This document shows positions 1 to 29,814 of a stretch of 29,814 bases of DNA, one piece after another. A model generated the notes under the pieces. It had not been told where the DNA came from. It did no database searches and worked only from the letters and a program-made list of their open reading frames with translations. The stretch comes from a virus. The number at the start of each line of letters is the position of its first letter. The first letter of the stretch is position 1. The position numbers and the translations under genes are program-made. Location of the stretch: IMG/VR virus record IMGVR_UViG_3300025674_000252, positions 1 through 29,814 of that record; one strand, written 5' to 3'.

Positions 1-1072
1 ACGCTCTGATTCTAAGGCCGCAGGTCGGTGGAGTACAGGTAGTGGGGGCGAGTATTTTGCGATTGGTGTTGGCGGTGCAGTTACAGGTAAAGGTGCTGAC
101 CTTTTAATCATTGATGACCCCCATTCCGAGCAAGAAGGCCAGAGCGGTGATCCCTCAGTCTTTGATAAGACCTATGAGTGGTACACATCAGGGCCAAGAC
201 AGCGTTTACAGCCGGGCGGTGCGATCATTATTGTAATGACCCGCTGGCACAAAAGAGACCTGACAGGGCAGATTATCAAGTCCTCTACTCAGCGTGTAGG
301 TTCAGATGAGTGGGAGGTGATTGAGTTTCCAGCGATCATGCCGTCAGAAAAGCCGTTATGGCCTGAGTTTTGGCCTATGGCTGAACTGGTGGCGCTAAGG
401 GAGGAACTGCCCTCAGCTAAGTGGAACGCCCAGTATCAGCAAAATCCGACCTCTGAAGAGGGGGCGCTAATCAAGCGTAACTGGTGGCGCATATGGGAGC
501 ATCAACACCCGCCTCCATGTGAGTTTATTATCCAGTCATGGGACACGGCGTTCCTAAAGACACAGAGATCAGATTACTCTGCCTGCACAACATGGGGAGT
601 GTTTTACGCCCCAGATGATGAGGGCATGACTGTAGCGAATATTATTCTACTAGACGCACTAAAAGAGCGACTAGAGTTTCCTGAGCTTAAAAAGGCCGCT
701 CAGGAGCTTTACACGGACTGGCAACCCGATGCATGTATTATCGAAGCAAAGGCCGCAGGAACGCCTTTAATCTTTGAATTAAGGGCTATGGGCATCCCAG
801 TATCGGATTACACCCCGTCCCGTGGTAACGACAAGATATCGAGAGTGAATGCAGTATCTGATTTATTCGCCTCTGGCATAGTGTGGCGACCTGAGAGAAG
901 GTTTGCAGAAGAGGTTGTTGAGGAGTTCGCGGCATTTCCTGCGGGAGAGCATGATGACCTTGTTGACTCATCAACTCAGGCGCTGTTGAGGTTTAGGCAG
1001 GGCGGGTTCTTAAAGTTAAGCTCTGACGAAGAAGAAGAGCCTTTACGCAACAGAACAGCGGCCTACTACTAA
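1..1072 (+). CDS. terL: Terminase large subunit (3' part, 5' end outside window)
   Basis: This is the ATPase/nuclease motor that cuts concatemeric DNA and pumps it through the portal. The reading frame is open from base 2, so the true start lies upstream; an internal ATG at 236 is not the start. Visible motifs are a Walker B-like LLIIDDP at about 101-121, the coupling segment IIIVMTRWHKRDL at about 227-262, and the C-terminal RNase H-like nuclease. The nuclease acidic residues lie in QSWDTAF (about 533-553), CIIEAKAAGTP (about 734-766) and GEHDDLVD (about 944-967). The segment QYQQNPTSEEGALIK joins the two domains, as is usual in this family. The Walker A part is outside the window and no small terminase subunit is visible. 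The stop overlaps the next start by one base (TAATG). The family call is secure; the packaging strategy (headful or cos) cannot be read from it. Confidence 0.95.
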   Translation, partial: RSDSKAAGRWSTGSGGEYFAIGVGGAVTGKGADLLIIDDPHSEQEGQSGDPSVFDKTYEWYTSGPRQRLQPGGAIIIVMTRWHKRDLTGQIIKSSTQRVGSDEWEVIEFPAIMPSEKPLWPEFWPMAELVALREELPSAKWNAQYQQNPTSEEGALIKRNWWRIWEHQHPPPCEFIIQSWDTAFLKTQRSDYSACTTWGVFYAPDDEGMTVANIILLDALKERLEFPELKKAAQELYTDWQPDACIIEAKAAGTPLIFELRAMGIPVSDYTPSRGNDKISRVNAVSDLFASGIVWRPERRFAEEVVEEFAAFPAGEHDDLVDSSTQALLRFRQGGFLKLSSDEEEEPLRNRTAAYY

Positions 1073-2207: not shown

Positions 2208-4688
2208 ATGGCAATGGAAAAACCTCTTGTTACTCCAGATCAGCTAACGCCTGAAGAGATGTCTGGCGCTATGGAGATAGAGATCGTTAACCCAGAGTCG
2301 GTTTCAATAGAGACTGAAGATGGCGGTCTAATGTTCGACTTTGACCCAGAATCTGAAATGTCTGGCGAAGTCGCATTCGATGCAAACCTAGCTGAGTATC
2401 TTGAAGAGCAGGACTTGGCAATGCTTGCCAGTGAGCTTGTAGGTCTGTTCAGGTCAGATAAAGAAAGCCGATCAGACTGGGAAAGGGTCTACATTGAAGG
2501 CTTAGACCTCTTAGGCTTGAAGCATGAGGATAGAACAACTCCTTGGGATGGCGCTTGTGGCGTATTCCACCCTCTGCTCACAGAGTCTGTTATTAAGTTT
2601 CAGTCTCAGTCGATTCAGGAACTGTTCCCAGCCAGTGGCCCAGTAAAGACCACTGTTGTTGGCGTTATTGATGAGATGAAAGAGAAGCAAGCTCATCGAG
2701 TACAAGATTATTTAAACTACCTTGTCACTGAAAAGATGACAGAGTATCGCTCTGAGACAGAAAAACTACTGTTCTCACTGCCTCTAGCGGGTTCCGCATT
2801 CAGAAAAGTGTACTTTGATCCCACTATGGGCCGTCCTTGCAGTATGTTTGTACCTGCTGAGGACTTTGTTGTTAGTTATGGTGCTTCTGACCTCACTACC
2901 TGCGAAAGAGCCACCCACATAATGAAGAAAACCAGCAACGAAGTACGCAAGTTGCAGGTCTCTGGGTTCTATGCAGACGTAGATTTAGGTCAGGCAAGCG
3001 ACAACACGGACGAAATAGAGCATAAATATCAAGAACTTACGGGTAATTCATCAACTTACGACAACGATTCTCGTCATACGATACTTGAAATGCAGGTTGA
3101 CCTCGACCTTATTGGCTTTGAGGACATGCAGGACGGAGAAATCACTGGAATACAGCTTCCATACGTTGTCAGCATTGATCTAAGCTCACGACAGGTGTTG
3201 TCTATCCGTAGAAACTACTACGAAGATGACGCTCAGAAGATGAAGCGAGAGCATTTCGTGCATTATCAGTATATGCCCGGCCTCGGCTTCTATGGATTCG
3301 GTCTGATTCACATGATTGGCGGCTTGGCTAAGTCTGCAACTTCACTTTTGAGACAGCTTGTAGACGCTGGAACGCTTTCAAATCTTCCCGGCGGCTTAAA
3401 ATCTAGAGGGTTAAGAATAAAGGGTGACGATACCCCCATCATGCCCGGCGAGTTCCGAGATGTGGACGTTCCGGGCGGTTCTATCCGTGAAAATATTAGC
3501 TTTTTGCCTTATAAAGAGCCAAGTAATGTTCTTTATCAGCTTATGGGCGATATTGTAGAGGAAGGCAGGCGATTTGCCTCAGCCGCAGACGTAAAAGCGG
3601 CTGATATGAACTCAGAAGCCCCTGTTGGAACGACTCTAGCCATACTAGAGCGATCCATGAAGGTGATGAGTGCTGTTCAGGCAAGGCTACACGCCTCAAT
3701 GCGTAAAGAATTGCGTATTTTATCCAAGATTGTTTATGACTTTGGCCCTACAGAATATCCATATCAGACTGAAGAGAACAAGGTCATATCTGAGGACTTT
3801 GATGGACGAATAGATGTTATTGCGGTAAGCGATCCCAACTCTGGCACTATGGCACAGCGAATCATGCAGTATCAAGCGGCATTGCAGTTATCTCAGCAGA
3901 ACCCTGATATGTACGATCTGCCTTTATTGCACCGTCAGATGCTAGATGTCCTTAACATCCGTGACGCAGATAAGATCGTTCCTCTTGATGAAGACATTAA
4001 GCCGACTAACCCAGTCAGTGAGAACATGAACATCATCAACAACAAGCCAGTCAAGGCGTTTATGTATCAGGATCATGAGGCACACATTCAGGCTCACATG
4101 GCCTTTATGGAAGACCCCAAGATTATGGAAATCGCTGGGAAAAGTCCTATGGCAAAAGCTATGGCGGCGGCTATGGCGGCACACGTTCAAGAGCATTTGG
4201 CGTTTGCTTATCGTCAACAGGTTGAGGATGAGCTTGGTGTTGAGTTGCCAGCAAACAACGAAGACCTACCTGAGAGCGTTGAACTTAAACTTTCAAGACT
4301 TGTTGCCCCTGCGGCAGAACAGCTTAAAGGCAAGAATCAGCAAGAGGCTCAACAGAAGAAAGCGCAAGAGCAGGCTAAAGACCCAGTTGTCCAGATGGCA
4401 CAGCGTGAGCTTCAAATTAAAGAGCAGTCTGCTATGGCTAAGGCTCAGATTGATCAGGCCAAGATGCAACTTGAAATCGCTAAGGCTAGAAGCAAGGCTG
4501 ATTACGATATGCAGAAGCTTGATCAAGAGGCTGAGATCGCTAAAGCCGAGCTTGCTGTCAAGATTGCTGAGGATAGGGCTAGAGAGGAGATGGATTCTCG
4601 CAAGCAGTCAACTAAAGAGCAGATTCAGGGTATCGAGATTGGCAAGGATTTAGCGGAGAGCCTATTCAATGTCAAGAGCGCAGAATAA
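2208..4688 (+). CDS. Portal protein
   Basis: This is the dodecameric ring at the head vertex through which DNA enters and leaves and to which the tail adaptors attach. The 826-residue product sits in the expected place after terL. It has the long portal layout: an acidic N-terminus, a wing/stem region, the helical segment NSEAPVGTTLAILERSMK (about 468-485), and a Gln/Lys/Glu/Ala-rich helical C-terminus (about 705-826) that would form a long coiled-coil barrel. AGGA lies 7 bases before the chosen ATG at 2208, which favours it over the second in-frame ATG at 2214. The size is large compared with T7 gp8 (536 residues) but close to that of P22-like and marine podovirus portals. The 3' end overlaps the next gene by 20 bases. 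The family call rests on position, length and remembered sequence likeness. Confidence 0.88.
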   Translation: MAMEKPLVTPDQLTPEEMSGAMEIEIVNPESVSIETEDGGLMFDFDPESEMSGEVAFDANLAEYLEEQDLAMLASELVGLFRSDKESRSDWERVYIEGLDLLGLKHEDRTTPWDGACGVFHPLLTESVIKFQSQSIQELFPASGPVKTTVVGVIDEMKEKQAHRVQDYLNYLVTEKMTEYRSETEKLLFSLPLAGSAFRKVYFDPTMGRPCSMFVPAEDFVVSYGASDLTTCERATHIMKKTSNEVRKLQVSGFYADVDLGQASDNTDEIEHKYQELTGNSSTYDNDSRHTILEMQVDLDLIGFEDMQDGEITGIQLPYVVSIDLSSRQVLSIRRNYYEDDAQKMKREHFVHYQYMPGLGFYGFGLIHMIGGLAKSATSLLRQLVDAGTLSNLPGGLKSRGLRIKGDDTPIMPGEFRDVDVPGGSIRENISFLPYKEPSNVLYQLMGDIVEEGRRFASAADVKAADMNSEAPVGTTLAILERSMKVMSAVQARLHASMRKELRILSKIVYDFGPTEYPYQTEENKVISEDFDGRIDVIAVSDPNSGTMAQRIMQYQAALQLSQQNPDMYDLPLLHRQMLDVLNIRDADKIVPLDEDIKPTNPVSENMNIINNKPVKAFMYQDHEAHIQAHMAFMEDPKIMEIAGKSPMAKAMAAAMAAHVQEHLAFAYRQQVEDELGVELPANNEDLPESVELKLSRLVAPAAEQLKGKNQQEAQQKKAQEQAKDPVVQMAQRELQIKEQSAMAKAQIDQAKMQLEIAKARSKADYDMQKLDQEAEIAKAELAVKIAEDRAREEMDSRKQSTKEQIQGIEIGKDLAESLFNVKSAE

Positions 4689-4885: not shown

Positions 4886-4930
4886 CACAACGACTCTGGA
4901 CGTTTTTTTCCAGTGCAGAAGGTCAGACTA

Positions 4931-5317
4931 ATGACAGATTTGTCTAAACCGTCAAAAAAAGACGAGAAAGAAACTTCTCGCAAGGCTAATCAGTTGCCTA
5001 AGCCGCAGGGCTATAAAATATTGATTGCTTTACCTGAGCCAGATGAAAAGACGGAAGGCGGAATTATTAAATCCGCTAGGTCGTTGCAAGACGAAGAGGT
5101 TGGTTCGATTGTAGGAATGGTGCTTAAACTTGGCCCAGACACTTACAGCGATCCTCAACGATTCCCGTCTGGCGCTTTTTGCAAAGAGGGAGATTGGGTT
5201 TTGATGCGATCTTACTCAGGCACTAGATTCAAAGTGCAAGGCAAAGAGTTCCGGTTAATCAACGATGACAGTGTTGAAGCTGTAGTCGAAGACCCAAGAG
5301 GCATAGTTAAAGTATGA
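4931..5317 (+). CDS. GroES-like co-chaperonin (phage Cpn10)
   Basis: This protein would cap the host GroEL folding chamber, as GroES or T4 gp31 do, probably to fold the capsid protein made from 7458. The 128-residue product has a charged extension (1-22) and then a Cpn10-like domain: PKPQGYKILIALPEPDE (about 24-39), a mobile-loop region with GGII at 43-46 corresponding to the hydrophobic GroEL-binding tripeptide of GroES, VGSIVGMVLKLGP (57-69), CKEGDWVLM (84-92) and the closing strands VQGKEFRLINDDSVEAVVE. An upstream GTG at 4913 is in frame, but AGAAGG at 4917-4922 lies at good distance before ATG 4931, so I take the latter. The stop overlaps the scaffold start (ATGA). No GroEL gene is seen here. 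Confidence 0.88.
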   Translation: MTDLSKPSKKDEKETSRKANQLPKPQGYKILIALPEPDEKTEGGIIKSARSLQDEEVGSIVGMVLKLGPDTYSDPQRFPSGAFCKEGDWVLMRSYSGTRFKVQGKEFRLINDDSVEAVVEDPRGIVKV

Positions 5318-7457: not shown

Positions 7458-8393
7458 ATGGCTATTTCACGCGCACAAATGCTCAAAGAGCTACTCCCCG
7501 GCCTTAATGCCTTATTTGGTCTTGAGTACGAGAAGTATGATGATGAACACACTCTTATTTATGAAACAGAGAGTTCTGATCGCTCGTTTGAGGAAGAAGT
7601 TAAGTTAAGCGGCTTTGCGGCGGCTCCAGTAAAGAACGAAGGTTCTTCAATCTCTTATGATTCAGCACAAGAGTCCTTTACTGCCCGTTACAACCACGAA
7701 ACTATCGCTACTGGGTTTTCTATAACCGAGGAAGCTATGGAAGATAACTTGTATGACTCACTGTCTGCTCGTTACACCAAAGCTCTTGCTCGCGCTATGG
7801 CATACACCAAGCAAGTTAAAGCGGCTTCTCCCCTAAACAACGGTTTCACTAATGCTTATCAGTCTGGTGACGGCGTAAACCTGTTCACTGCTGTTGGTGA
7901 TGGTGTTGCTGGCGGTGGCGGTCACCCAACTGTAGGTGGTGGCTTCAACAGCAACCGTCCTGCCACTGGTGCTGACTTAAACGAAACATCTCTGGAGAAT
8001 GCGATCATTACGATTGCAGGATACACAGATGAGCGCGGCCTGCTTATTGCGGCTCGTCCTACTCGTTTGATTGTTCCGCCTAACCTGATGTTCGTTGCGG
8101 ATCGCTTGCTGGAAACTACTCAGCGAGTTGGAACTGCCGATAACGACCTCAATGCTATTCGTAACATGGGTGCTGTACCTGAAGGCTACTCTGTCAATCA
8201 CTACCTGACTGACACTAACGCTTTCTTCGTAATGACCGATATTCCAAACGGTCTGAAGCACTTTGAGCGTACTGCTCTAGAGACTAGCATGGACGGAGAT
8301 TTCGACACAGGTAACGTGCGCTATAAAGCGCGTGAGCGTTACTCGTTCGGTGTATCCGATCCGCTGGGCATCTACGGATCGCCCGGAGCGTAA
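7458..8393 (+). CDS. Major capsid protein (HK97-fold type)
   Basis: The 311-residue product is the main shell protein. It shows a conserved N-terminus (ELLPGLNALFGLEYEKYDDEH, about 11-31), the segment SSDRSFEEEVKLSGFAAAP (about 39-57) preceding the E-loop-like region, helical ITEEAMEDNLYDSLSARYTKALARAM (the spine helix, about 89-114), a glycine-rich loop (GVAGGGGHP, about 149-157), and the C-terminal RYKARERYSFGVSDPLGIYG. These match my recollection of marine podovirus capsid proteins of about 310-330 residues related to Mu gpT. No separate delta domain or N-terminal prohead protease substrate is evident. The first 20 bases are identical to those of the gene at 10347. A rho-independent terminator follows. 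Confidence 0.93.
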   Translation: MAISRAQMLKELLPGLNALFGLEYEKYDDEHTLIYETESSDRSFEEEVKLSGFAAAPVKNEGSSISYDSAQESFTARYNHETIATGFSITEEAMEDNLYDSLSARYTKALARAMAYTKQVKAASPLNNGFTNAYQSGDGVNLFTAVGDGVAGGGGHPTVGGGFNSNRPATGADLNETSLENAIITIAGYTDERGLLIAARPTRLIVPPNLMFVADRLLETTQRVGTADNDLNAIRNMGAVPEGYSVNHYLTDTNAFFVMTDIPNGLKHFERTALETSMDGDFDTGNVRYKARERYSFGVSDPLGIYGSPGA

Positions 8394-18146: not shown

Positions 18147-18317
18147 ATGGGATTATTTACTTGGGTAGCCTCACTGTTCTCAACCAGTCAAGAGGAAGAT
18201 AAACACGCCCCGGAAGACGAGTTGGTTCGTGCAAGAGACAAGAGGGGCCGTTTTGTTGGCGACAACCCTAATACAAAAAAGAACGAGGCTTACACGAAGA
18301 AGGCCGCAAAGAAGTGA
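18147..18317 (+). CDS. Small lysis-cassette protein with RDKRGRF motif
   Basis: The 56-residue product begins with a short amphipathic/hydrophobic helix (MGLFTWVASLFSTS) and continues with the polar motif RARDKRGRFVGDNPNTKKNEAYTKK. I recall the RDK-G-F--D-P-T---NEAY pattern from many marine phages. Start at ATG 18147 (with GGGAG upstream) is preferred over 18087, which would run inside the holin. The stop overlaps the lysozyme GTG start (GTGA). Function unknown; perhaps peripheral membrane association. Confidence 0.65.
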   Translation: MGLFTWVASLFSTSQEEDKHAPEDELVRARDKRGRFVGDNPNTKKNEAYTKKAAKK

Positions 18318-18748
18318 GTCAGTCTAGATTCAATAGGCTTATAATAATGCTAAAGCGTCATGAAGGCGTTAAACGGCATGTATATAAGTGTTCTGCTGGC
18401 TATGAAACGATAGGAGTTGGCAGAAACATCTCCGATTCTGGGTTAGGTCTTTCTGATTCTGAGGTTTTGTCACTGTTAACGAACGATATCTATAGGGTTA
18501 TTGATGAGTTATCATCAGAGTATGATTGGTTTGATGGGCTTGATCCTGTAAGAAAAGATGCGATGGTTGACCTGTCCTTTAATGTAGGTCAAACATCATT
18601 AAGAAAGTTTAAGAATGCATTGCAGGCTATGTCTGAGAAAGACTATAGCAGGGCGGCAGATGAGTTTATGGACTCTAGGTGGAGCCAGCAGGTCGGTAAC
18701 AGGGCTGTTGAGGTCACTAACATGATAAGAACCGGAGAGTATCAATAA
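18314..18748 (+). CDS. Endolysin, GH24 (T4 lysozyme-like), with Cys in the catalytic Asp place
   Basis: This is a muramidase cutting the glycan strands of peptidoglycan. The 144-residue product shows H16-E17-G18 (catalytic Glu), Y24-K25-C26 and Y30-E31-T32-I-G-V-G. The spacing E17-8-C26-5-T32 equals the E11/D20/T26 triad of T4 lysozyme, so Cys26 stands where Asp20 normally does. That replacement is known to be tolerated in T4 lysozyme and occurs in natural endolysins. The C-terminal lobe includes RKDAMVDLSFNVGQTSLRKFKNALQAM and EFMDSRWSQQVGNRAVEVTNMI, as in the family. No signal peptide or signal-anchor helix is present, so release depends on the holin. Start is GTG 18314, overlapping the previous stop. 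Confidence 0.92.
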   Translation: MSQSRFNRLIIMLKRHEGVKRHVYKCSAGYETIGVGRNISDSGLGLSDSEVLSLLTNDIYRVIDELSSEYDWFDGLDPVRKDAMVDLSFNVGQTSLRKFKNALQAMSEKDYSRAADEFMDSRWSQQVGNRAVEVTNMIRTGEYQ

Positions 18749-19733: not shown

Positions 19734-21590
19734 ATGCCCTTACAGAAGATTCAGTTTGCCGCTGGAATTAGCAAAGAAGGGACAGACTATACTGCCGATC
19801 AGGGGTGGACTGATTCTGACAAAATACGCTTTAGGAAAGGTCGCCCTGAAAAAATAGGCGGTTGGACTAAGTTTTCTCTAAATACTTTTCAGGGTGTTTG
19901 CAGGTCTCTCTACACATGGGCCACACTGGGTGCTACCAAGCACACTGGTGTTGGGACAAACCTAAAGTTCTACATCACTGAGGGAGTAAACTTCAATGAT
20001 GTCACGCCACTAAGGGCTACTACATCAGCGGGTGATGTTACGTTTTCAGCGTCCAATGAAAGTTCCACGATTACTGTGTCAGATACGTCTCACGGTGCAG
20101 TTGTTAATGATTTTGTAACATTCTCTGGCGCGGCTAGCCTTGGTGGAACCGTTATTGCTAGCGTCCTTAATCAGGAATATCAGATAGCATCTATAATAAA
20201 TTCCAATAGCTATACTGTTATTGCAAAAGATACCTCTGGCAACACCGTAACCGCCAACGCTAGCGACTCTGGGAATGGCGGCAGTAGCACTGTTGGTGCG
20301 TATCAGATAAACACAGGATTGAATACGTTTGTTCAAAGCACGGGTTGGGGCGTTAACACTTGGGGTAGTGGAGGATTTGGTTCTGTAACAGCAATAACAG
20401 CATCAAGTCAGCTAAGACTATATAGTCAAGATAATTTTGGCGAAGACCTTGTGTTCAATCCAAGGGGCGGAGGTATATATTACTATGACATTTCCGCAGG
20501 TCTAGCAAACAGAGCTTTGGACATTACCGATGCCTCACTTGGAGGATCAAACCCCCCAACAGCGGCCTTGCAGGTAATGGTATCCGATGTTGATCAGCAT
20601 GTTATTGCTTTTGGCGTAAATCCTATTGGGTCATCAACCATAGACCCTTTGTTTATACGATTCTCTGATCAGGGTAGCTTAACCGACTGGACACCCACCG
20701 CGACCAATACTTCAGGCGGAGCGAGAATAAACTCTGGCTCACTTATCGTTGGCGCTGTTCAGACAAGGCAAGAGATACTTGTATTCACAGATGAAAGCCT
20801 GCATTCAATGAGATTCGTGGGCGGCCCTTTTGTATTTGACTTTTCGACAGTTAGCACAGATGTTTCGATGGTTTCCCCTAGAGCGGCAATCAATGCGAGA
20901 GGCTCCGTGTACTTTATGGATGAGGGTAGTTTTTACGCCTATAACGGTTCAGTTCAGCCTCTCCCATGCTCCGTTAAGGACTATGTGTTCTCCAACTTAA
21001 ATGTCGGCCAATCTTACAAGGTATTTGCGGCTGAAAACTCTGCATACTCCGAGGTTACTTGGTATTATCCTATAGGAACTGGAGATACAGAGATAACCAA
21101 CTATGTGACGTACAACTACGAGGAAAACCTGTGGTCTGTAGGGACGTTAGATAGAGGCGCATGGTTTGATTCAGGAATGGGAGATAGCCCCATAGCAACG
21201 AGCGTTGATACAGATACAGCCGCAACCTACAACTACCTCTATAGCCATGAGACCGGCTTTGATGCTGACGGCTCCGCTATGACGGCTTATGTGGAGTCTG
21301 GAGACCTTGAGATAGGTGACGGTGAAGGGTTCATGTTTATGAGCAAGGTTATACCCGACTTCTCGTTTGACGGAGCCGACCCTTCAGTTGATATTACAGT
21401 AAAAGGCAGAAACTATCCGCTTGAAGATGCAACAGAGCTTTCGTCAGTTACTGTTAACCAGTCAACAACAGAGTCATACCTGCGAGCGCGGGCTAGACAC
21501 CCAGTGATCAGGGTGGAAAGCACAGGCTCTGGATACGGCTGGAGACTTGGAACGCTTAGATTTCAGATTAGACAGGATGGCAGAAGATAA
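19734..21590 (+). CDS. Tail nozzle/hub protein (P22 gp10 / T7 gp12-like)
   Basis: The 618-residue product is beta-rich throughout with repeated short strands, as expected of the beta-propeller-type nozzle of short-tailed phages. Recognisable parts are the N-terminal GISKEGTDYTADQGWTDSDKIRFRKGRPEKIGGWTKF (about 10-46) and the middle DVDQHVIAFGVNP...DPLFIRFSDQGSLTDWTPT. Then follow GGARINSGSLIVGAVQTRQEILVFTDESLHSMRFVGGPFVF and a C-terminal RARARHPVIRVESTGSGYGWRLGTLRFQIRQDGRR. The Arg/Trp pattern at both ends is typical of marine podovirus proteins of this kind. An inserted domain at about 95-190 is Ser/Thr/Asn-rich. It would bind the adaptor ring and form the lower tail. No depolymerase motif is seen. 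Confidence 0.75.
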   Translation: MPLQKIQFAAGISKEGTDYTADQGWTDSDKIRFRKGRPEKIGGWTKFSLNTFQGVCRSLYTWATLGATKHTGVGTNLKFYITEGVNFNDVTPLRATTSAGDVTFSASNESSTITVSDTSHGAVVNDFVTFSGAASLGGTVIASVLNQEYQIASIINSNSYTVIAKDTSGNTVTANASDSGNGGSSTVGAYQINTGLNTFVQSTGWGVNTWGSGGFGSVTAITASSQLRLYSQDNFGEDLVFNPRGGGIYYYDISAGLANRALDITDASLGGSNPPTAALQVMVSDVDQHVIAFGVNPIGSSTIDPLFIRFSDQGSLTDWTPTATNTSGGARINSGSLIVGAVQTRQEILVFTDESLHSMRFVGGPFVFDFSTVSTDVSMVSPRAAINARGSVYFMDEGSFYAYNGSVQPLPCSVKDYVFSNLNVGQSYKVFAAENSAYSEVTWYYPIGTGDTEITNYVTYNYEENLWSVGTLDRGAWFDSGMGDSPIATSVDTDTAATYNYLYSHETGFDADGSAMTAYVESGDLEIGDGEGFMFMSKVIPDFSFDGADPSVDITVKGRNYPLEDATELSSVTVNQSTTESYLRARARHPVIRVESTGSGYGWRLGTLRFQIRQDGRR

Positions 21591-22110: not shown

Positions 22111-24413
22111 TGAACAACCCTAACGCGCAATATGCAAACCAACGCCCAATGCAGGGGGTTGCCGACCAAATGGCTACTCACGGACGTTATGGCGATAGCA
22201 TGATGGTTCACATGAACCCTGTCGAGGTTGCAGGACTTGCTTCTCTGTCTCCTACAGGCTCTTTGACCACTAACCCTGTGACAGGTCAGCCAGAGGCGTT
22301 CCTGCCCTTTTTAGCGCCATTGCTTGGAGGTATGCTTGGATCGGCAGGATTTACCGCTCTTGGTGGTGCGCTTGGGACAGGGGTTTTAGGTTCTGCCGCA
22401 ACTGCTCTAGGAGCTAATGCGGCTCTCGCGAGTGCTGTAGGCTCCGGTCTGGCTACAACCGCAGTGACTGGAGACTTAAAGCAGGGGATTATGTCTGGGT
22501 TAACTGGTTATGGTATTGGTCAAGCATTAGGGGGTGCGTCAGACCTTATAGCTGGAGTTCCAGAAGCCACAACAGCACTGACGGGGGCAGAGCAGGCACT
22601 TGCCCAAGGAACTCAAGACCTTAGTCAGCAGGCTTTGTCTCAAGGGGTAGAGGCATCTGCGCTGGCAAGCCCTGAGCTAACAAATCTTCAAGGAAATGTG
22701 TTTGACGCAAAAGAAGGGCTTATGCAGGCCAATGTTGATTCGATGAATGTAAGCACCGGAGATATTCTTAAAGACGGAAAGGTGGATTTTGCAAAGAACC
22801 TAATGTCAAAGCAGTCAATTCTTCCCATAGCGATTGGCGAAGGCGCAAGAGCAGGCGAGATGCTTTCAGATGACATGAGGGCGGCTGGGCGTAAGAGGCA
22901 GGCTGAGAAAGATGCGGAGTTGGCAGATGCTTATGCGCGGAGAGACTATGCGGTAGAGATGGCTCGGAAGGACTCTGCTCTTAACAACCCATACACAGGA
23001 GCATACGGGTACAATCAGGGCGGTTTAACTTCGATTAACCCTCAAGATTACATGCGCCAGCGCAATAACCTAGAGAATATGGGCAGAGCGCCTGTTCAGA
23101 TGTTTGAGGGGGGTGGAATCCCCTCTGATATTCGTATGTTCAACGTCAATAGAGGCAATGCTGTAGATACGCAACGCTCAATTAGACCCCCCAGAATTGT
23201 CACAGGTGCGGAGTTAGAGGCTGAGTCAGCGGCTATGGTAGCTGAAGGTCGAGACCCTCGCGCAGGATTCGGCGCAGAGAAAGTTTACTTTAGAGAGCCT
23301 CTGCCAGACCCAGTAGACCCAGTAGACCCAGCAGACCCCCCTGCCGATAGCAATCCTCCATATGAGCTTCCGCCAAATTTCCCAACATTCCCCGGAAAAG
23401 GCGGTTACAACCCAAGCGCAAACATGGATATGGGAACCACTGAAGTAGAGAGCGCGATGAGGGCTAATGCTTTAAGAACTGGTCGCGGTGCGTTTGATGC
23501 AAATGATGCAGAAAGAGCCTTGAGGGACAGTTCCGCAAGAGAGGCTGGCGCTTTGGTAACTGGAATTGGCAGTGAAGACCTTCGCAGGAGCTTTGCTAGC
23601 GATTACGGAGACTTGACCGTACCGATATACAACAGAAACGAAATGGCTAGTGGAGGCATTGTGTCTTTAGCTGAAGGGCAGGGCGTTCCGTCTATGGCTC
23701 CAGCAATGGGTGCAGAAGGCATGGAAATGACCACCTATCCCGATCAGTCCACAATGCAGATGGACGCACCTCAGATGGAGCCTAACGAGATTCTTTCGGT
23801 TATTCAGGAGGTCAAGCAGATTATTCAGGTAGACCCTGATGGCACAAGAGGAGATCAGCAAAGATATAATATGCTTAAACAAAAGCTAAAAGCTATTACC
23901 GCTCAGATTGGTGAGGAAGCGTTGATGGAGCTTATGGGTACAAACACTGACCCTGTGTCTTTGGCTAATGGTGGAATGACCCCTCAAAACAAAGAAACTC
24001 AGTTGCTAGAGCAAACAACTCAAGCGATCCTAGGCCAGTTGCCCTCCGATCAAGCTGAGGTTGTTATTAACATGTTCGTAGATACCTACGGCAGTGAAGT
24101 CTTCGCTCAGTTGCGCGATACAGTGCTACAATCGGTAGTGCCAAACGCCCAAACAGAAGGTAAGATAGAAGGTCAAGGTGGAGGCATGGATGACGAGGTT
24201 ATGGGCATGATTGGCAATCAACAGCCAGTCGCAGTAAGCCCTGACGAGTACATTGTTCCCGCTGATGTAGTTTCTGGCATTGGTGACGGAAGCTCAAGTG
24301 CTGGCGCAGAACAATTAGATGAGATGCTAGATAGGGTTCGGTCAACAAGAACCGGAACAACTAGACAGCCTGCTCCAATTCAAGCTAAACAAGGTGGGGT
24401 ATTGCCTGCATGA
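22110..24413 (+). CDS. Large internal/ejection-type virion protein with Gly-Gly motifs
   Basis: The 767-residue product begins with a conserved head (MMVHMNPVEVAGLASLSPTG, about 31-50, then QPEAFLPFLAPLLGG). A long Gly/Ala-rich hydrophobic stretch (about 64-143) follows that could insert into membranes, as ejection proteins do. The middle is helical and charged (about 250-290) and a Pro/Asp linker comes at about 400-425. The C-terminal part has VSPDEYIVPADVVSGIGDGSSSAGAEQLDEMLDRVR (about 710-745), a motif I recall from marine phage virion proteins. Short GG units recur: NQGGLTSI, FEGGGIPSDI, GKGGYNP, ASGGIVSL, ANGGMTPQ and KQGGVLPA. Membrane-penetrating ejection protein is an inference from composition and place. 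Confidence 0.65.
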   Translation: MNNPNAQYANQRPMQGVADQMATHGRYGDSMMVHMNPVEVAGLASLSPTGSLTTNPVTGQPEAFLPFLAPLLGGMLGSAGFTALGGALGTGVLGSAATALGANAALASAVGSGLATTAVTGDLKQGIMSGLTGYGIGQALGGASDLIAGVPEATTALTGAEQALAQGTQDLSQQALSQGVEASALASPELTNLQGNVFDAKEGLMQANVDSMNVSTGDILKDGKVDFAKNLMSKQSILPIAIGEGARAGEMLSDDMRAAGRKRQAEKDAELADAYARRDYAVEMARKDSALNNPYTGAYGYNQGGLTSINPQDYMRQRNNLENMGRAPVQMFEGGGIPSDIRMFNVNRGNAVDTQRSIRPPRIVTGAELEAESAAMVAEGRDPRAGFGAEKVYFREPLPDPVDPVDPADPPADSNPPYELPPNFPTFPGKGGYNPSANMDMGTTEVESAMRANALRTGRGAFDANDAERALRDSSAREAGALVTGIGSEDLRRSFASDYGDLTVPIYNRNEMASGGIVSLAEGQGVPSMAPAMGAEGMEMTTYPDQSTMQMDAPQMEPNEILSVIQEVKQIIQVDPDGTRGDQQRYNMLKQKLKAITAQIGEEALMELMGTNTDPVSLANGGMTPQNKETQLLEQTTQAILGQLPSDQAEVVINMFVDTYGSEVFAQLRDTVLQSVVPNAQTEGKIEGQGGGMDDEVMGMIGNQQPVAVSPDEYIVPADVVSGIGDGSSSAGAEQLDEMLDRVRSTRTGTTRQPAPIQAKQGGVLPA
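23306..23332 (+). repeat. 9-bp tandem repeat coding for a Pro-Asp linker
   Basis: Three units of AGACCCAGT, the third with C as its last base, encode a PVD-type linker in the 767-residue protein. Slippage would change linker length by three residues without shifting the frame. Confidence 0.8.
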
Positions 24414-24919
24414 GTAGCGTAGCCGAAAAGAAAGAGGTTAAAAGAGACCTTTCTAGAGAACCACGGGTAAAGAACAAGAACGCCCCCAGAAAGATCACAC
24501 ACACCATCACAATAGCCCCTACAACGTATTTAAATGCATTGTGGCCTGACGTAGAGGATCAGCTTAAACGCGCTGTAATACGCTCTAATGGGCGCTGGAC
24601 GATGGAAGTCCTTTTTCAGGTCATCTCTAGCGGTCAGCAACATCTTTGGTTGGCGTTTAATGAAGATAAAGAGATTGAGGGCGTAGGCACTACAGAGTTT
24701 ATAGATTATCCAAACAAAAGGATGCTTGCCATTCAGTTCCTTGGAGGAGACAACTTCAACGACTGGGTGTGGGATATGCTTGAAAAGTTCAACGGCTTCG
24801 CAAAAGATTCAGGTTGTGACGGAATAGAGGCCACTGCAAGGCAGGGATTCTGGAAATGGCTAAAGCAAGATGACTTTGAACAGTCATATGTTGTTTATGA
24901 GAAGAGGATTGAGAAATGA
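24410..24919 (+). CDS. GNAT-fold virion protein (T7 gp13-like)
   Basis: The 169-residue product has a basic disordered start (about 1-28) and a GNAT-like core: TMEVLFQVISSGQQHLWLAFNEDKEIEGVGTTEFIDYPNKRMLAIQFLGG (about 64-113), a helix with DWVWDMLEKFNGFAKDSGCDGIEATARQGFWKWLK, and a last strand SYVVYEKRIE. The clear acetyl-CoA pyrophosphate loop (Q/RxxGxG/A) is not seen. T7 gp13 and relatives keep the fold and act in virion assembly, which is the likely role. Position between two large internal proteins agrees. ATGA overlaps join it to both neighbours. An active acetyltransferase is less likely. Confidence 0.72.
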   Translation: MSSVAEKKEVKRDLSREPRVKNKNAPRKITHTITIAPTTYLNALWPDVEDQLKRAVIRSNGRWTMEVLFQVISSGQQHLWLAFNEDKEIEGVGTTEFIDYPNKRMLAIQFLGGDNFNDWVWDMLEKFNGFAKDSGCDGIEATARQGFWKWLKQDDFEQSYVVYEKRIEK

Positions 24920-27030
24920 GCAAAGGTGGCGGCGGCGGTGGCGTACAAGAAGTCGAGCAAACAACAACCAACTTGCCCGAATACGCAAGACCGTTCTATG
25001 AAAACCTCTTAGGTAGAGCAACGTATGAAAGCGAAAGAAGATATGAGGGCTACCCGGCTCCTCGTCTTGCCGATTTTGACCCGTATGAAATGGACGCTAT
25101 GGGCGGTATCGCTGATATGGCGTATCGTGGCGATCCAATGCAACTACAGCAGGCTTCTGAGTTGGCGGCAGGAGTTGGCTATCAAGACCCAAATCAAGCA
25201 ATGCAAGTCGCTAATGCCTATCGGCCTGATGCTCAGTATTCAGGCTATTTTGCTGGAGACATTAACTCTGGTTATGGCGCAGGAAATTTAGGTCAAGGCT
25301 TTCAAGCAGGCCAGAGAGATTCTGGCTATATGGCTCAGGACGTTGACTCTGGCTATCAGGCGGGGGACATAGGCAGTGATTATCAGGCTATGTATCGCGG
25401 TACTGGCTATCAGCCAATGCAATTTGATGCAGGCTACGATCCAAGCGCAAGAGGCTCTCAGTTTATAGCTGAAGACCTTTTATCCCAGTACGCACCTCAG
25501 CAGTACGAAACTGGCTATCAAGGAAGAGAATTTGATGCAGGGTATGTTGCCAGAGAGCTTGGGCAGGATTACACGGCAAGAGACCTTGAAAGTGGATTTG
25601 AGGCGGGAAGCATAACAGATCAAGGCGTTCTTGATCAGTACATGAACCCTTATCAGCAACTTGTTACTGATGTTCAGAAGCGAGAAGCGAGACGAGAAGC
25701 CGATAAGAGCGCGGCAGATATCGGCCTTCAAGCGGCTGGTTCTGGTGCTTTTGGCGGCTACCGTGAGGGTGTTTTGCTTGCCGAGCAGGACAGAAACCTA
25801 CAGCAACAGTTGTCTGACATACAGGCTACGGGCGATCAGGCGGCATTTAATCAGGCTTTACAGGCGTTTGAGGCTGATCGATCCGCTAGAGGTCAAGAGG
25901 AGACGTTTAGACAGTCTGCCTTTGGCACTACTGAGCAGGCGCGACAAGCTCAACAGCAGATGGCGATATCATCCTTTGAAGCGGGTGAAAGGGCTAAACA
26001 GCAAGCCGCTACGCTAGGCATGACAGCCCAGCAAGCAGAAGATGCCGCGCAACAGGCGAGAGAGCAATTTGGTCAGTCTGCATTCGGGATGAATGAAGAG
26101 GCTCAACGAGCGGCAGAACAGTTCCGTCAGTCGGCTTACGGGCAGACTATGGACGCAAGGGCGCAACAAGAGCAGTTTGCACAAGCGGCTTTTAATGCTG
26201 GAGAACAGGCAAGACAACAGGCGGCACAGTTAGGTCTAACAGCCCAACAAGCAACTGATGCGGCTAATCAGGCTAGAGAGAACTTTGAGGTCAATGCGTT
26301 TAATCAGTTTGATCAGGCTAGGCAACAGCAACAGCAGTTTGAGTTTGCGGCGTTTAACGCAGGCGAGCAGGCAAGACAGCAAGCCGCTCAGTTAGGGTTA
26401 ACTGCTCAACAGCAAGAAGAGTCGGCCCGTCAAGCTCAGGAGCAGTTCTCTCAGACAGCATTCTCTGAAAACGAACAGCTTAGAATGGCTCAACAGCAAG
26501 AAGACAGAGCGGTGTTTGAAGCACAGCAACGTGCCGAGCAAGAAGGTGCTAGGCTTGGTCTTTCTGCTCAAGAGATACAGGAGCGCGTTAATCAGGCTCA
26601 GAACGATGCCAGAATGGCCGCTAGAGACGCAAATAATCAGTACATGCTAAACCAGTCCAATCTAGCAATGCAGGCGTTAGACTCAGATAGAGCAAACAGG
26701 GATCAGATACTGCGATCCTCTGAGCTTCTTGGTAGCCTTGGCGGTCAAGATCAGCGTATGGAGCTTGAGCGATTGCAGAACTTGCAGGCGGCAGGCCAGA
26801 ATATGCGAGACTTGGAGCAACGTAGCCTTGATATGGGATATCAGGACTTCTTGCGCCAGCAAGCATTTCCTCGCGAACAGCTTGGATTCTTCAGTAACAT
26901 CCTTCAGGGTATTCCGGTTACGCCCGGAACCACTAGAACAGCATTTGGCGAAGGGCCATCCTCTTACCAGCAGGCTCTTGGTGCAGGTATTGGTGGTGTT
27001 GGGTTGTATAATGCCCTTGGTCGCGGTTAA
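24916..27030 (+). CDS. Repeat-rich internal virion protein (9- and 18-residue periodic)
   Basis: The 704-residue product has four parts. After MSKGGGGGGV and a conserved N-terminal region (NLPEYARPFYENLLGRATYESERRYEGYPAPRLADFDPYE, about 19-58) comes a tract at 102-228 in which Tyr or Phe occurs every ninth residue, 15 times without a miss, typically as (S/T)GY. Residues 235-310 are a conserved helical hinge (YMNPYQQLVTDVQKREARREADKS, GSGAFGGYREGVLLAEQD). Then 311-580 holds 15 tandem 18-residue modules, consensus near EQF-Q-AF--GEQARQQA, probably one long straight helix or coiled coil. The C-terminus (about 580-704) ends with Gly-rich segments. Similar layouts are familiar to me from marine phage virion proteins. 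A tape-measure-like rod or DNA-ejection conduit is a reasonable inference. Confidence 0.7.
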   Translation: MSKGGGGGGVQEVEQTTTNLPEYARPFYENLLGRATYESERRYEGYPAPRLADFDPYEMDAMGGIADMAYRGDPMQLQQASELAAGVGYQDPNQAMQVANAYRPDAQYSGYFAGDINSGYGAGNLGQGFQAGQRDSGYMAQDVDSGYQAGDIGSDYQAMYRGTGYQPMQFDAGYDPSARGSQFIAEDLLSQYAPQQYETGYQGREFDAGYVARELGQDYTARDLESGFEAGSITDQGVLDQYMNPYQQLVTDVQKREARREADKSAADIGLQAAGSGAFGGYREGVLLAEQDRNLQQQLSDIQATGDQAAFNQALQAFEADRSARGQEETFRQSAFGTTEQARQAQQQMAISSFEAGERAKQQAATLGMTAQQAEDAAQQAREQFGQSAFGMNEEAQRAAEQFRQSAYGQTMDARAQQEQFAQAAFNAGEQARQQAAQLGLTAQQATDAANQARENFEVNAFNQFDQARQQQQQFEFAAFNAGEQARQQAAQLGLTAQQQEESARQAQEQFSQTAFSENEQLRMAQQQEDRAVFEAQQRAEQEGARLGLSAQEIQERVNQAQNDARMAARDANNQYMLNQSNLAMQALDSDRANRDQILRSSELLGSLGGQDQRMELERLQNLQAAGQNMRDLEQRSLDMGYQDFLRQQAFPREQLGFFSNILQGIPVTPGTTRTAFGEGPSSYQQALGAGIGGVGLYNALGRG
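25219..25599 (+). repeat. 15 aromatic residues at exact 9-residue spacing
   Basis: In the protein from 24916, Y102, Y111, Y120, F129, Y138, Y147, Y156, Y165, Y174, F183, Y192, Y201, Y210, Y219 and F228 form one unbroken register. The residue before is usually Gly (or Asp/Gln), and the unit often ends in D/E plus a hydrophobic residue. No insertion or deletion disturbs the spacing. Confidence 0.9.
25846..26655 (+). repeat. 15 tandem 18-residue helical modules
   Basis: Modules start at residues 311, 329, 347, 365, 383, 401, 419, 437, 455, 473, 491, 509, 527, 545 and 563 with no gaps. Phe/Tyr is at module position 8 in ten of them. Four (starting 365, 437, 491, 545) are of an LGLTAQQ variant type, the last three spaced by 54 residues. 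The DNA copies differ in many codons, so this is an old array. Confidence 0.88.
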
Positions 27031-27055: not shown

Positions 27056-28861
27056 ATGAATAACATACAGCAACAAATCGACATTGTTAGCCGACTTCCT
27101 GATGATGTGCTTTTGATGAAAGCGCAGAAGGGAGACCCATCAATTCCTCAGTGGGCTTTTGTCTCTGAGATTGATGACCGTACCCGTATGCGTAAAAACA
27201 GTGAAGCCTCACAGCAAGCACAGCCCAAAGTTGCACAACGTGTTGTTCAGGAAGGTATTGCCGCATTACAGCCCATGCAACAACCCATGCAACAGCCTCA
27301 AGGAATGTACGCTGGCGGCACTATTCGTATGCAACGCGGGGGCTTTTTGAACCAGCGCGACTTTAACTTCTTAGGCGCAGAACCTCAATCTAGAGGCGCA
27401 TATATTGACGATGGAAAGCGTATTGATGCTTCCTTACTTGACCCTGCCAAACTTTTTATCGACAACATAGCGAGAGCGCGTGAAATGGGAGTGCCTGAGA
27501 GCCGATTGGTGGATACCATACGCTCTCAGTTTGGAGATACTGCGGGAGACCAAGCCGCTCAAATCTATTCTAGCCTGAACGATGTGCAAAAAGTGAGACC
27601 TGTAATAGACGATATGACATCCGATGCTATTCCGCTATCAACTATAGTGCCAGAAGGAAGAAGACTTTCAGATCGAAAAACCCCTCTAGGCGCTATTGCC
27701 AGAGCAGTTTCATCGCCGTTTGAGAATGCTCCTCAAGATTTTGATGACACTACCGCTGTTGATCAGATTTTTGCAGACGCAAAAAATGCCAAAAAGCCAA
27801 TCTCAGAAGAAGAGTTTTTGGCGGCTGGGGGAATGCCCACATCCATGCAGTCGGACTTGCTAGCGGTAGTGTCTCCTACCAATATCAGGTTGCCAACAAA
27901 GGTAGATGAAGATGGAGAGAAAATCGATGATCCTTCAGGCGCACTGGTAGAGGATGCTAGTAAGCACCTCGTCCGTCCCCCTACAAAAGAAGAGACTGAT
28001 GTTCAAACAGGATATTTTGCTGGTTTAGGCGATGTAGCAACAGGTATTGGTAAATTTTTTACGCTTCCAGACGGGATGAACGGCAACAATACGACAGCCA
28101 GCACGAACAGCAACAATACGGCAGACAGCACTGGAGCATTGCTGGGCGCTTCTACTGCTAACGCTAGCAATTCCGGGCAGGGCGGCGCAAGTGATGACAT
28201 TGACACTCAGCGTGAAGATCAGCTTAATCGGTTAATAGCATCGGCAAGTACACGCACAGGTACAGGTACAGGTACAGGTACAGGTACAGGTGTAGAGGAT
28301 CCGTTTACTGGATTAACAGCCGAAACCCAAGATTCTGTTAGACAGCAGGCTGAGGGTTTCGCGCAGTCTATAGCCTCACAGGCTGGCAATGACAGCAAAA
28401 TAGATCAGCAAATGCTTTCTACTGCACTAATGTACATAGGTGCTGGCCTTATGAAGAATGACCTCGGAGGAGGCATTGAAAATGCGGCTAAGGCGGTTAC
28501 AGGCATACGAGAGAAAGAAGCCGATAGAGCCTTACAGAAGGAATATTACGATACTCGAAGGGCTGAAGCCTTAAGAGATCAAGCCTTTAGGTCAAGTTCC
28601 GCAGATCAGGCTGATCAGATAAAGCTGGCAACTGAGGTGCGAAGAGAGCTAATAGATTGGGAGAAGTCTGATCCTGCTTTGGCAGGGTTGAAGATATCCA
28701 GCCCCAACGAGTACGCAAGAAGACGCGCCGCTAAGAGAGCAGAGCTTGGGCGTAGCATCGGTTCAGACCTGAGAGTGCCGAAAAGAATAGTTGATGCTTA
28801 TATTGGCTCTGAGTCAGGTTCTTTGACTTCTGGGAAGTATTCTATAACCGAGGTTAAATAG
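27056..28861 (+). CDS. Large internal virion protein with N-terminal MYAGG/QRGG motif
   Basis: The 601-residue product begins with a conserved block: DIVSRLPDDVLLMKAQKGDPSIPQWAFVSEIDDRTRMRK (about 9-47), a QAQPKVAQRVVQEGIAAL helix, a Met/Gln/Pro linker and MYAGGTIRMQRGGFLNQ (about 84-100). I recall this block from marine phage virion proteins. The middle is acidic and Asn/Ser/Thr-rich, with a Thr-Gly tract from a hexanucleotide repeat. The C-terminal third is helical (MYIGAGLMKNDLGGGIENAAKAVTGIREKEADRALQKEYYDTRRAEALRDQAFR). It is probably an internal or ejected protein working with the genes on either side. No enzymatic motif visible. A weak GAGGT lies upstream of ATG 27056. Confidence 0.68.
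   Translation: MNNIQQQIDIVSRLPDDVLLMKAQKGDPSIPQWAFVSEIDDRTRMRKNSEASQQAQPKVAQRVVQEGIAALQPMQQPMQQPQGMYAGGTIRMQRGGFLNQRDFNFLGAEPQSRGAYIDDGKRIDASLLDPAKLFIDNIARAREMGVPESRLVDTIRSQFGDTAGDQAAQIYSSLNDVQKVRPVIDDMTSDAIPLSTIVPEGRRLSDRKTPLGAIARAVSSPFENAPQDFDDTTAVDQIFADAKNAKKPISEEEFLAAGGMPTSMQSDLLAVVSPTNIRLPTKVDEDGEKIDDPSGALVEDASKHLVRPPTKEETDVQTGYFAGLGDVATGIGKFFTLPDGMNGNNTTASTNSNNTADSTGALLGASTANASNSGQGGASDDIDTQREDQLNRLIASASTRTGTGTGTGTGTGVEDPFTGLTAETQDSVRQQAEGFAQSIASQAGNDSKIDQQMLSTALMYIGAGLMKNDLGGGIENAAKAVTGIREKEADRALQKEYYDTRRAEALRDQAFRSSSADQADQIKLATEVRRELIDWEKSDPALAGLKISSPNEYARRRAAKRAELGRSIGSDLRVPKRIVDAYIGSESGSLTSGKYSITEVK
28256..28291 (+). repeat. (ACAGGT)6 hexanucleotide microsatellite
   Basis: Six perfect ACAGGT units lie inside the gene at 27056 and encode alternating Thr and Gly. 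Length changes would add or remove Thr-Gly pairs without a frameshift. Confidence 0.95.
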
Positions 28862-28865
28862 CCTA

Positions 28866-29814
28866 ATGCCAGTATATGAAGTAGTTGACCCGAATGGCCG
28901 AAAGCTAAGGATAGAGGGCGATCAACCTCCGTCAGATATGGAGCTTGATCAGATTTTTGCCCAGCAAGAGTATCCTGTATTTGGGACAACAAGCCAAACT
29001 CCTCAAGAGGAGCTAGACCCTTACGCTGACAAAAGAACAGCGTTGGGACAGGCTGGTGAGTTTGGTAAGGGTGCTGTAAGGGGCTTTGCTGGATCATTCT
29101 TGACTGCCGCAGAAGGTCTCGCTGAACTGGCTGACGCTGGTACTAATGCCCTTGGCTTTGAAGACTTAATAGATAGTGGCGATGAGAATGCGCTTGTGTC
29201 TGCCGCAAAGGCAGGTCAAGAGGTTATACAAGATAATCTTGGCGCTAGCGATGCTTACAGGGATCAGTGGCTCACTAAATTCGGTGAGGGAGTTGGCTCG
29301 TTTGCTTCATTCTTTACCCCTGCGGGTGCTGTTAAGGGGCTAGGTCTTACAGGTAAGCTTGCTTCACGCAGTCAGTTAGGAGCGGCAGGAACCTTGGCTG
29401 GTGGCGTAGGTGCTGGTGAGCAAGCTCAAAGAATACAAAGAGCCAGAGATCAGGGCATTGAGGTGTCCGAGGCTCAGGAAGACCTTGCCATATTTGGCGG
29501 CACAGCGGTAGGATTTACAGAATTAGCGTCTGTGGGCAGTATTTTAAGGCGTATCAGCAAGAACGCCAAGCCTGAGTTTGTTAACAGCATTAAAGAAAGG
29601 CTTAAATCAGCGTCAAAGTCTGGCCTTGAGGAAGGAACGCAGGAAGTTGTCGCCAACATCATGCAGGATGCCATTGAGCGTGGCGTGTATAACGAGAACC
29701 TTGAGAGCGATATGTCTCTTGGGAGCCTTCTCACCTCAGATGAATTTACAGTTGGTGGCGCTAGCGGTTTTGCCGCAGACCTTATACTTAACTCTGTGGC
29801 AAACAGAAGGGGAA
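28866..29814 (+). CDS. Large virion protein, N-terminal part (3' end outside window)
   Basis: The frame is open from ATG 28866, 4 bases after the preceding stop, to the end of the window (316 codons). The first 35 residues (MPVYEVVDPNGRKLRIEGDQ, then PPSDMELDQIFAQQ) form a small conserved start. The next part has GEFGKGAVRGFAGSFLTAAEGLAELADAGTNALG, YRDQWLTKFGEGVGSFASFFTP, GGVGAGEQAQRIQRARDQGIEVSEAQEDLAIFGG and LEEGTQEVVANIMQDAIERGVYNENLE. These Gly/Ala-rich amphipathic helices resemble the N-terminus of very large marine phage proteins, some of which continue into lytic or polyvalent enzyme domains. It could be a membrane-spanning ejection protein. What follows downstream cannot be known from here. 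Confidence 0.72.
   Translation, partial: MPVYEVVDPNGRKLRIEGDQPPSDMELDQIFAQQEYPVFGTTSQTPQEELDPYADKRTALGQAGEFGKGAVRGFAGSFLTAAEGLAELADAGTNALGFEDLIDSGDENALVSAAKAGQEVIQDNLGASDAYRDQWLTKFGEGVGSFASFFTPAGAVKGLGLTGKLASRSQLGAAGTLAGGVGAGEQAQRIQRARDQGIEVSEAQEDLAIFGGTAVGFTELASVGSILRRISKNAKPEFVNSIKERLKSASKSGLEEGTQEVVANIMQDAIERGVYNENLESDMSLGSLLTSDEFTVGGASGFAADLILNSVANRRG

Follow-up and report, generated by a model that had tools for sequence, protein, structure and literature searches.

Two length-matched repeat arrays in a probable internal ejection protein of a podovirus-like marine phage

The window – the whole stretch of 29,814 nucleotides analysed here – comes from a marine virus of bacteria and represents the structural half of a podovirus-like genome (Table 1). 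Relatives of its portal protein are found in the Pelagibacter phages HTVC023P and HTVC027P, the roseophages CRP-901 and CRP-902, the cyanophages MinM2 and Pag-Yong1 and Caulobacter phages such as GB2A. These portal relatives belong to podoviruses, as exemplified by HTVC023P, whose type is placed in the Podoviridae in the available part of PMC9599517. In HTVC023P and CRP-902, a GroES gene is likewise annotated between the portal and capsid genes.

The gene under study lies in a run of genes whose order – 13-like, 14-like, 15-like and 16-like, after the numbering of phage T7 – is shared by the window, by relatives of the gene and by CRP-902, as judged from position and size rather than homology. 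An ORF of 135–173 aa is located just upstream in 101 of the 103 distinct relatives discussed below; in the window, this 169-aa neighbour has no Pfam match. In CRP-902, gp35 is an Acetyltransf_1 protein (3.4e-8), and the order runs from this GNAT protein through the relative of the window protein to two larger proteins. The next ORF downstream measures 293–892 aa in relatives where it is complete, the 601-aa version in the window matching no family in PHROG or Pfam, and the giant ORF that follows reaches 2290–2815 aa in complete relatives (20 loci). Two genes downstream of the relative in GB2A there is a transglycosylase domain (SLT, 9.9e-18), and the ORF two genes after the relative in MinM2, 8412 bases long, is annotated as RelA/SpoT.

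Some of the surrounding genes carry repeats at the DNA level. A 767-aa gene further upstream, which has no family match in PHROG or Pfam, contains AGACCCAGT repeated 3.7 times (23306-23338), and the family found at this position ranges from 656 to 1230 aa in relatives. The 601-aa downstream gene contains GTACAG repeated 7.3 times (28248-28291), which encodes a Thr–Gly run (TGTGTGTG) and is adjoined by a 27-base duplication at 28078-28131.

Table 1. Features of the window, in nucleotide positions, with residue numbers for the parts of the protein under study
Feature	Position	Strand	Basis or remark
Large terminase	236-1072		phrog_38
Portal	2208-4688		phrog_1216
GroES-like co-chaperonin, phage-borne	4913-5317		phrog_3188 (5.5e-14)
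Major head protein	7458-8393		phrog_371
Endolysin-like ORF	18314-18748		
Virion structural protein	19734-21590		phrog_3287
Upstream neighbour, 169 aa, GNAT-like by synteny	24410-24919	+	phrog_7642; positional counterpart of T7 gene 13
Gene under study, ORF, 704 aa	24916-27030	+	
N-terminal part, residues 1-99: conserved helices (LPEYARPFYENLLGRA) after a poly-Gly start	24916-25212	+	ORF; relatives; AlphaFold2
Tape array, residues 100-234: 15 x 9 residues, S-G-Y-Q-A-G-x-x-x	25213-25617	+	autocorrelation; logo
Core separating both arrays, residues 235-310: YMNPYQQ...GGYRE...	25618-25845	+	constant length in relatives
Helical (stave) array, residues 311-580: 15 x 18 residues	25846-26655	+	autocorrelation; relatives; AlphaFold2
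Predicted helix break 1, LGMT, residues 367-370	26014-26025	+	AlphaFold2
Predicted helix break 2, LGLT, residues 439-442	26230-26241	+	AlphaFold2
Predicted helix break 3, LGLT, residues 493-496	26392-26403	+	AlphaFold2
Predicted helix break 4, LGLS, residues 547-550	26554-26565	+	AlphaFold2
C-terminal part, residues 581-704: helix to 662, LDMGYQDF, Gly-rich tail (GAGIGGVGLYNALG)	26656-27030	+	relatives; AlphaFold2
Downstream neighbour, 601 aa	27056-28861	+	positional counterpart of T7 gene 15
Start of giant ORF, runs off the window	28866-29814	+	positional counterpart of T7 gene 16

The two repeat arrays of the protein are flanked and separated by conserved segments. Across 33 relatives, P21, P26, R34, E38, R50 and P74 of the N-terminal part are invariant, as are the columns of LDMGYQDF (residues 638–645) in the C-terminal helix, and the AlphaFold2 model places N-terminal helices at residues 25–40, 56–71 and 75–89. 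The core is rigid in length: from its M(x)P motif to G..GG and from there to the anchor F, the spacings are 34 + 34 residues in all 103 distinct relatives, and 28 of 28 additional loci share the value of 34 for the first of them.

The first-pass annotation of this DNA had described the stave region as a gapless series of fifteen 18-residue modules, and this series stands far above chance: compared with shuffles of the same region, its self-identity reaches z = 7.9, 8.2 and 13.4 at lags of 18, 36 and 54 residues. The logo of the 18-residue units has Phe at positions 3 and 8. Variant modules, reading LGMTAQQ, LGLTAQQ or LGLSAQE, start at residues 365, 437, 491 and 545 and are thus 72, 54 and 54 residues apart, the last two spacings confirming the 54-residue recurrence that had been noticed near the end of the array. 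The tape array has a self-identity of z = 9.5 at lag 9 and z = 11.3 at lag 36, with further signals at lags 18 and 27, and Tyr occurs at position 3 of its unit with a frequency of 0.78 (logo of 329 units). Since Tandem Repeats Finder detects no DNA repeat in this gene, neither array is a DNA repeat and the periodicity is kept at the level of the protein.

Two remarks in the same annotation on how the arrays relate to each other fared less evenly. The common 9-residue register of F318 and F228 exists in the window protein but is not a general feature, the register of the helix anchor relative to the tape tyrosine taking seven different values in 35 clusters and differing between clades. The annotation also pointed out that the longer unit has double the length of the shorter one, yet it overlooked what matters most, namely that each 18-mer is matched by one 9-mer, with which it is gained and lost: the arrays match in their number of units, not in a 9-residue register.

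This matching emerged from a comparison of relatives, which were collected in four scans and comprise 178 proteins with all anchors (103 distinct ones, in 45 clusters). In each, x was taken as the distance between the invariant proline motif near the N terminus and the M(N/S)P motif, which covers the tape region; y, the distance between the anchor F and LDMGYQDF, covers the stave region. Excluded at first were 64 of 260 loci without the motif pair and, of the 196 loci with both motifs, 18 without the anchor; many of the excluded loci were re-read with other anchors, namely 28 loci and a further 19 of the CRP clade, three of them mis-anchored and not counted.

The number of modules ranges from 0 to 21 across relatives and differs even between near-identical phages. 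While y varies from 54 to 381, 98 of the 103 distinct relatives keep y − 2x within the range of −125 to −99, with a constant value inside each clade – in other words, doubling the upstream span and adding an offset fixed for each clade gives the helical span. The correlation between x and y is r = 0.996 over the 41 clusters without exceptions and 0.906 over all 45. The rule is broken by five of the 103 (L059/L060, L143, L056 and L171) and also by L176, with L189 deviating mildly; those of the five that were read have non-repeat segments in the tape region. An out-of-sample relative on a contig from a metagenome-assembled genome (L337), with 21 modules, has a y − 2x of −119, within the expected band.

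Individual relatives depart from the common pattern in other ways. In L059, a Pro/Gly-rich stretch replaces the tape array and few stave units are left, and in L051 nearly all 18-mers are of the break type (FGSQQGMTAQQ...), compared with a one-in-three pattern in the window protein. The contigs of L337, L338, L339 and L340, labelled as Rickettsiales, Euryarchaeota, Maricaulis and Chloroflexi genomes, are probably not proviruses but sequences of phages that were placed in the bins of cellular genomes.

Close pairs, defined by a core identity of at least 0.8 and differing in length (n = 396), bring out the unit of change. The first-pass annotation had proposed a comparison of module number across relatives, and whole-unit changes are indeed the rule, y differing by a multiple of 18 in 382 pairs and x by a multiple of 9 in 372; the relation dy = 2dx holds exactly in 371. 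Its idea that 18 residues, or five helical turns, are a real structural quantum is upheld by these length differences and by helix prediction. A FastTree tree built on the conserved core yields 30 edge-disjoint – hence independent – pairs that differ in length; rounded to the nearest module, the changes in the two arrays agree in 26 of these pairs, and in 18 the agreement is exact. Moreover, in ten close pairs that lie one to five modules apart in both arrays, the intervening core DNA is 90–99% identical, so that two separate indels must have been kept each time. On these sequence comparisons, the length-matching of the arrays is well supported.

The clades themselves differ in the phase of y modulo 18, which takes values of 0, 3, 7, 11 and 14. 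Residues at these spacings come back to almost one face of an α-helix, which suggests that the stretch between the anchor F and LDMGYQDF preserves its helical phase, also in cases that break a whole-unit rule. Among 12 gene families within 10 kb, none has a length that follows the number of modules, the largest |r| (−0.77, n = 24) belonging to an ORF of 123–130 aa that varies by only 7 residues, and the length of the downstream gene yields r = 0.26 (n = 83).

The rule recurs where the repeats themselves have changed. In a third clade (L212–L235), whose repeat sequence is very different, x/y pairs of 119/126, 128/144 and 137/162 again correspond to 9 residues per 18. In the distant clade of CRP-902, the tape unit is 12 residues long (YQGATREELLGQ), with one unit per 18-mer, and 15 of the 16 usable loci fit y = 1.5x plus a constant of −8 to −11.5; the cultured CRP-902 itself has one tape unit too few. 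One 12-residue unit per 18-mer means that the invariant is the number of units and not the ratio of residues. Judging from its REELL motif, the 12-residue unit could include a helical turn and would then also fit a rise of 2.7 nm.

That distance follows from simple geometry: 18 residues of α-helix rise 2.7 nm, and 9 residues at 0.30 nm, typical of an extended chain, rise equally far. From this equality we infer that the tape, in extended form, lies beside the helical stave and runs in the opposite direction. A hairpin made of two such tracks predicts that units are gained or lost at mirrored positions, and this is what the indels of the two arrays display. Where two proteins of one clade differ by a single clean indel in each array, the paired indels lie at equal distances from the core in both arrays (r = 0.965 over 45 non-redundant events, which are not fully independent, being drawn from same-clade pairs), with a mean offset of 0.69 module and an sd of 0.67 module. 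Random placement gives an sd of 3.3, none of 20000 trials being equally tight, and a parallel register gives r = −0.40. The 213 pairs behind this test were chosen within a clade constant, which makes their unit numbers equal from the outset but leaves the positions free; the counts over the 396 close pairs and the 30 tree-based pairs carry no such condition. A further comparison, of mutual information between units of the tape and the modules with helix breaks, exceeds shuffles in antiparallel order at several offsets near zero (z of 4–8, fading at +4), but it does so in parallel order too, more weakly (z up to 5.4), and picks out no single register. As positional trends confound it, it was not used as evidence.

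Structure prediction gives a partial picture. For the window protein, AlphaFold2 with 33 sequences gives a model (mean pLDDT 63.6, pTM 0.30) in which residues 277–662 are almost wholly helical, in segments 277–366, 371–438, 443–492, 497–546 and 551–662, and the breaks between them fall exactly at the LG(L/M)(T/S) modules. The single straight, unbroken helix of 40 nm envisaged in the first-pass annotation is therefore not borne out, the helix being broken at four modules in the model. Such breaks could mean that the chain folds back, which makes the straight rise of 2.7 nm per module a putative value. In the monomer model, the tape array has no structure and is not docked on the helix (pLDDT about 30). 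A 5-module relative gave similar helices and an unplaced tape in a model too poor to use (pLDDT 47.9). Profile, sequence and fold searches returned no credible match among solved structures; Foldseek and VIA-align, applied to the model of the window protein, found only generic long-helix matches within chance for helical models, the best Foldseek E being 0.24 (the cyanophage A4 pre-ejectosome, 9k2v) and the best VIA-align Z 7.7.

As to function, 21 of 33 relatives match PHROG 4287, annotated as ‘DNA ejection protein’, at E ≤ 0.01 (best 4.8e-15), the short relatives over nearly their full length (4.8e-15 and 8e-13). Proteins of named phages match it as well (MinM2, 2.1e-19; HTVC023P gp81, 2.3e-10; Caulobacter phage GB2A gp064, 1.6e-9), and the window protein does so weakly, at 0.0023 – not at E ≤ 0.001 – and over residues 484–700 only. 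With these profile matches in hand, the trans-envelope conduit listed as an option in the first-pass annotation looks like a reasonable guess. At E ≤ 0.01, none of the 33 relatives matches phrog_805, the family of T7 gp14, and no tape measure PHROG appears among the matches of the 33; the Pfam matches of family members are limited to GCIP_N (two members) and SBSN_GxHH_rpt (one member). As T7 gp13, gp14 and gp15 and P22 gp7, gp20 and gp16 fall in PHROGs other than 4287 (805 and 1339 on the T7 side), we do not file the window protein as a gp14 homologue.

Our preferred reading, to which we assign a probability of about 0.6, is that the window protein is an internal ejection protein of a podovirus, with its length set by two matched arrays and its tape running antiparallel on its stave. 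Emerging from the N-terminal domain, the chain would first form an extended tape with a 9-residue unit for every module, then turn through the constant-length core and return as a helical stave with 18 residues, or five turns, per module; the N- and C-terminal domains would thus meet at one end, with the core at the opposite end. As both tracks rise by about 2.7 nm per unit, a gain or loss in one would have to be accompanied by the same in the other to keep the two aligned. In each module, the tyrosine of the tape probably docks on the aromatic and alanine face of the helices, whether of its own subunit or of an adjacent one.

During infection, the protein would leave the particle in several copies along with the other ejection proteins and would form, as a presumed oligomer, a rod or tube across the cell envelope. 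The number of modules would set its reach, up to about 57 nm for the 0 to 21 modules of relatives and about 40 nm for the 15 modules here. We infer that its most likely role is that of an ejection protein, internal to the virion, which builds a rod, or a tube through the envelope, whose length can be adjusted. More tentatively, and at slightly less than even odds, the protein could be a self-matched molecular ruler, in which two tracks of equal rise but different secondary structure, paired unit by unit in antiparallel order, set the length in steps of 2.7 nm, with a unit of each gained or lost per step, to suit the envelope crossed.

The length match might arise without docking if both arrays spanned the same distance in the particle or tunnel while tied only at their ends – for instance, with the tape lining the lumen, the helices in the wall, and the N- and C-terminal domains and the core as ties. 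Such an arrangement would explain the match in total length equally well and would agree with the undocked tape of the monomer model, yet end-tying would allow indels at any place, whereas those observed match in position too, which makes it unlikely, even considering that insertions may prefer certain spots and so partly confound the positional test. The helix breaks invite another reading, in which each LG(L/M)(T/S) module reverses the chain and the array folds into a spectrin-like bundle of helices of about 50 residues, giving a compact internal core and no rod. The four predicted breaks do fall exactly at these modules, usually 54 residues apart, but their spacing varies (36, 54 or 72 residues), changes by single 18s as well as by threes would swap up and down helices, and one tape unit per 18 residues across the breaks would require the tape to turn as well; we regard such hairpins as quite improbable.

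It is rather unlikely, but worth weighing, that the protein is a tail-side rod – a needle, a fibre shaft or the internal tape of an unusual tail – whose module number tracks an external length such as that of a surface polysaccharide. Phages that are almost identical differ in module number, a pace of change like that of a host-range trait, and the available part of PMC5099701 describes aromatic 18-residue repeats in the tape measure protein of TP901-1. The annotation of PHROG 4287, the gene order of an ejection cassette and the podoviral kinship of the portal nonetheless point to the interior of the virion, and some relatives have no modules at all, a state incompatible with a shaft. A neutral expansion of repeats, with arrays drifting by recombination and their agreement incidental or inherited, is highly improbable: repeats do expand and contract easily and many relatives share ancestry, but the independent pairs mostly agree, the near-identical core DNA between changed arrays leaves no explanation in single exchanges, and the modules have diverged at the DNA level, so that selection on the protein period must be acting.

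The ejection proteins of podoviruses are among the least understood parts of the virion because they refold during infection. The present family offers a natural length series with fixed ends, in which 0 to 21 modules are set on a constant core in marine phages, and which makes a trans-envelope conduit of defined, tunable length a testable idea. The geometric rule of one tape unit per five helical turns could help in modelling and in designing rigid rods to a desired length, and the strict covariation of two arrays supplies strong structural evidence from sequence alone where monomer prediction failed. We know of no family in which selection holds two arrays of different unit lengths in exact 1:1 register over 0 to 21 units, and a search of the literature found no description of such a coupled repeat, which is weak evidence of absence as subscription papers were mostly not covered. 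We regard the protein as a new architecture within a known functional class, the ejection proteins, for which the sequence evidence of length-matched arrays is strong and the evidence of function moderate.

Of the known counterparts, CRP-902 gp34, together with its relatives, shares the architecture and the 18-residue staves of the window protein and differs in its 12-residue tape unit; CRP-902 is a cultured roseophage, and its protein is one tape unit short. The named members of PHROG 4287 – HTVC023P gp81, GB2A gp064 and Synechococcus phage MinM2 gene 23 – occupy the same place in the gene order but have neither tape nor stave arrays, and the window protein exceeds double their length. In tape measure proteins (TP901-1 and others), 18-residue aromatic helical repeats and whole-unit changes in length recall the stave; according to the available parts of PMC5099701 and PMC3271669, however, their repeats with aromatic markers are a mix of 11 and 18 residues, while those of the present family are 18 throughout, in a podovirus presumably without a long tail, and no co-varying second, shorter array is described there.

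The gene order of the window and of relatives resembles the ejection cassette of T7, gp13 to gp16, and the T7 ejectosome of gp14, gp15 and gp16 is similar in its place in the cassette, in containing helical protein and in a tape that cements helical subunits: in the available part of PMC8954989, gp16 is an extended ‘molecular tape’ that cements gp15 in the periplasmic tunnel. T7 gp16 carries a transglycosylase domain, as does the second gene downstream of the GB2A relative. Relatives of the window protein range from about 295 to about 860 aa, outside the 181–240 aa given for gp14-like proteins in the same source, where size varies by under 30%. In T7, tape and helices reside in two proteins of fixed length; in the present family, they are carried by one chain and vary in length together.
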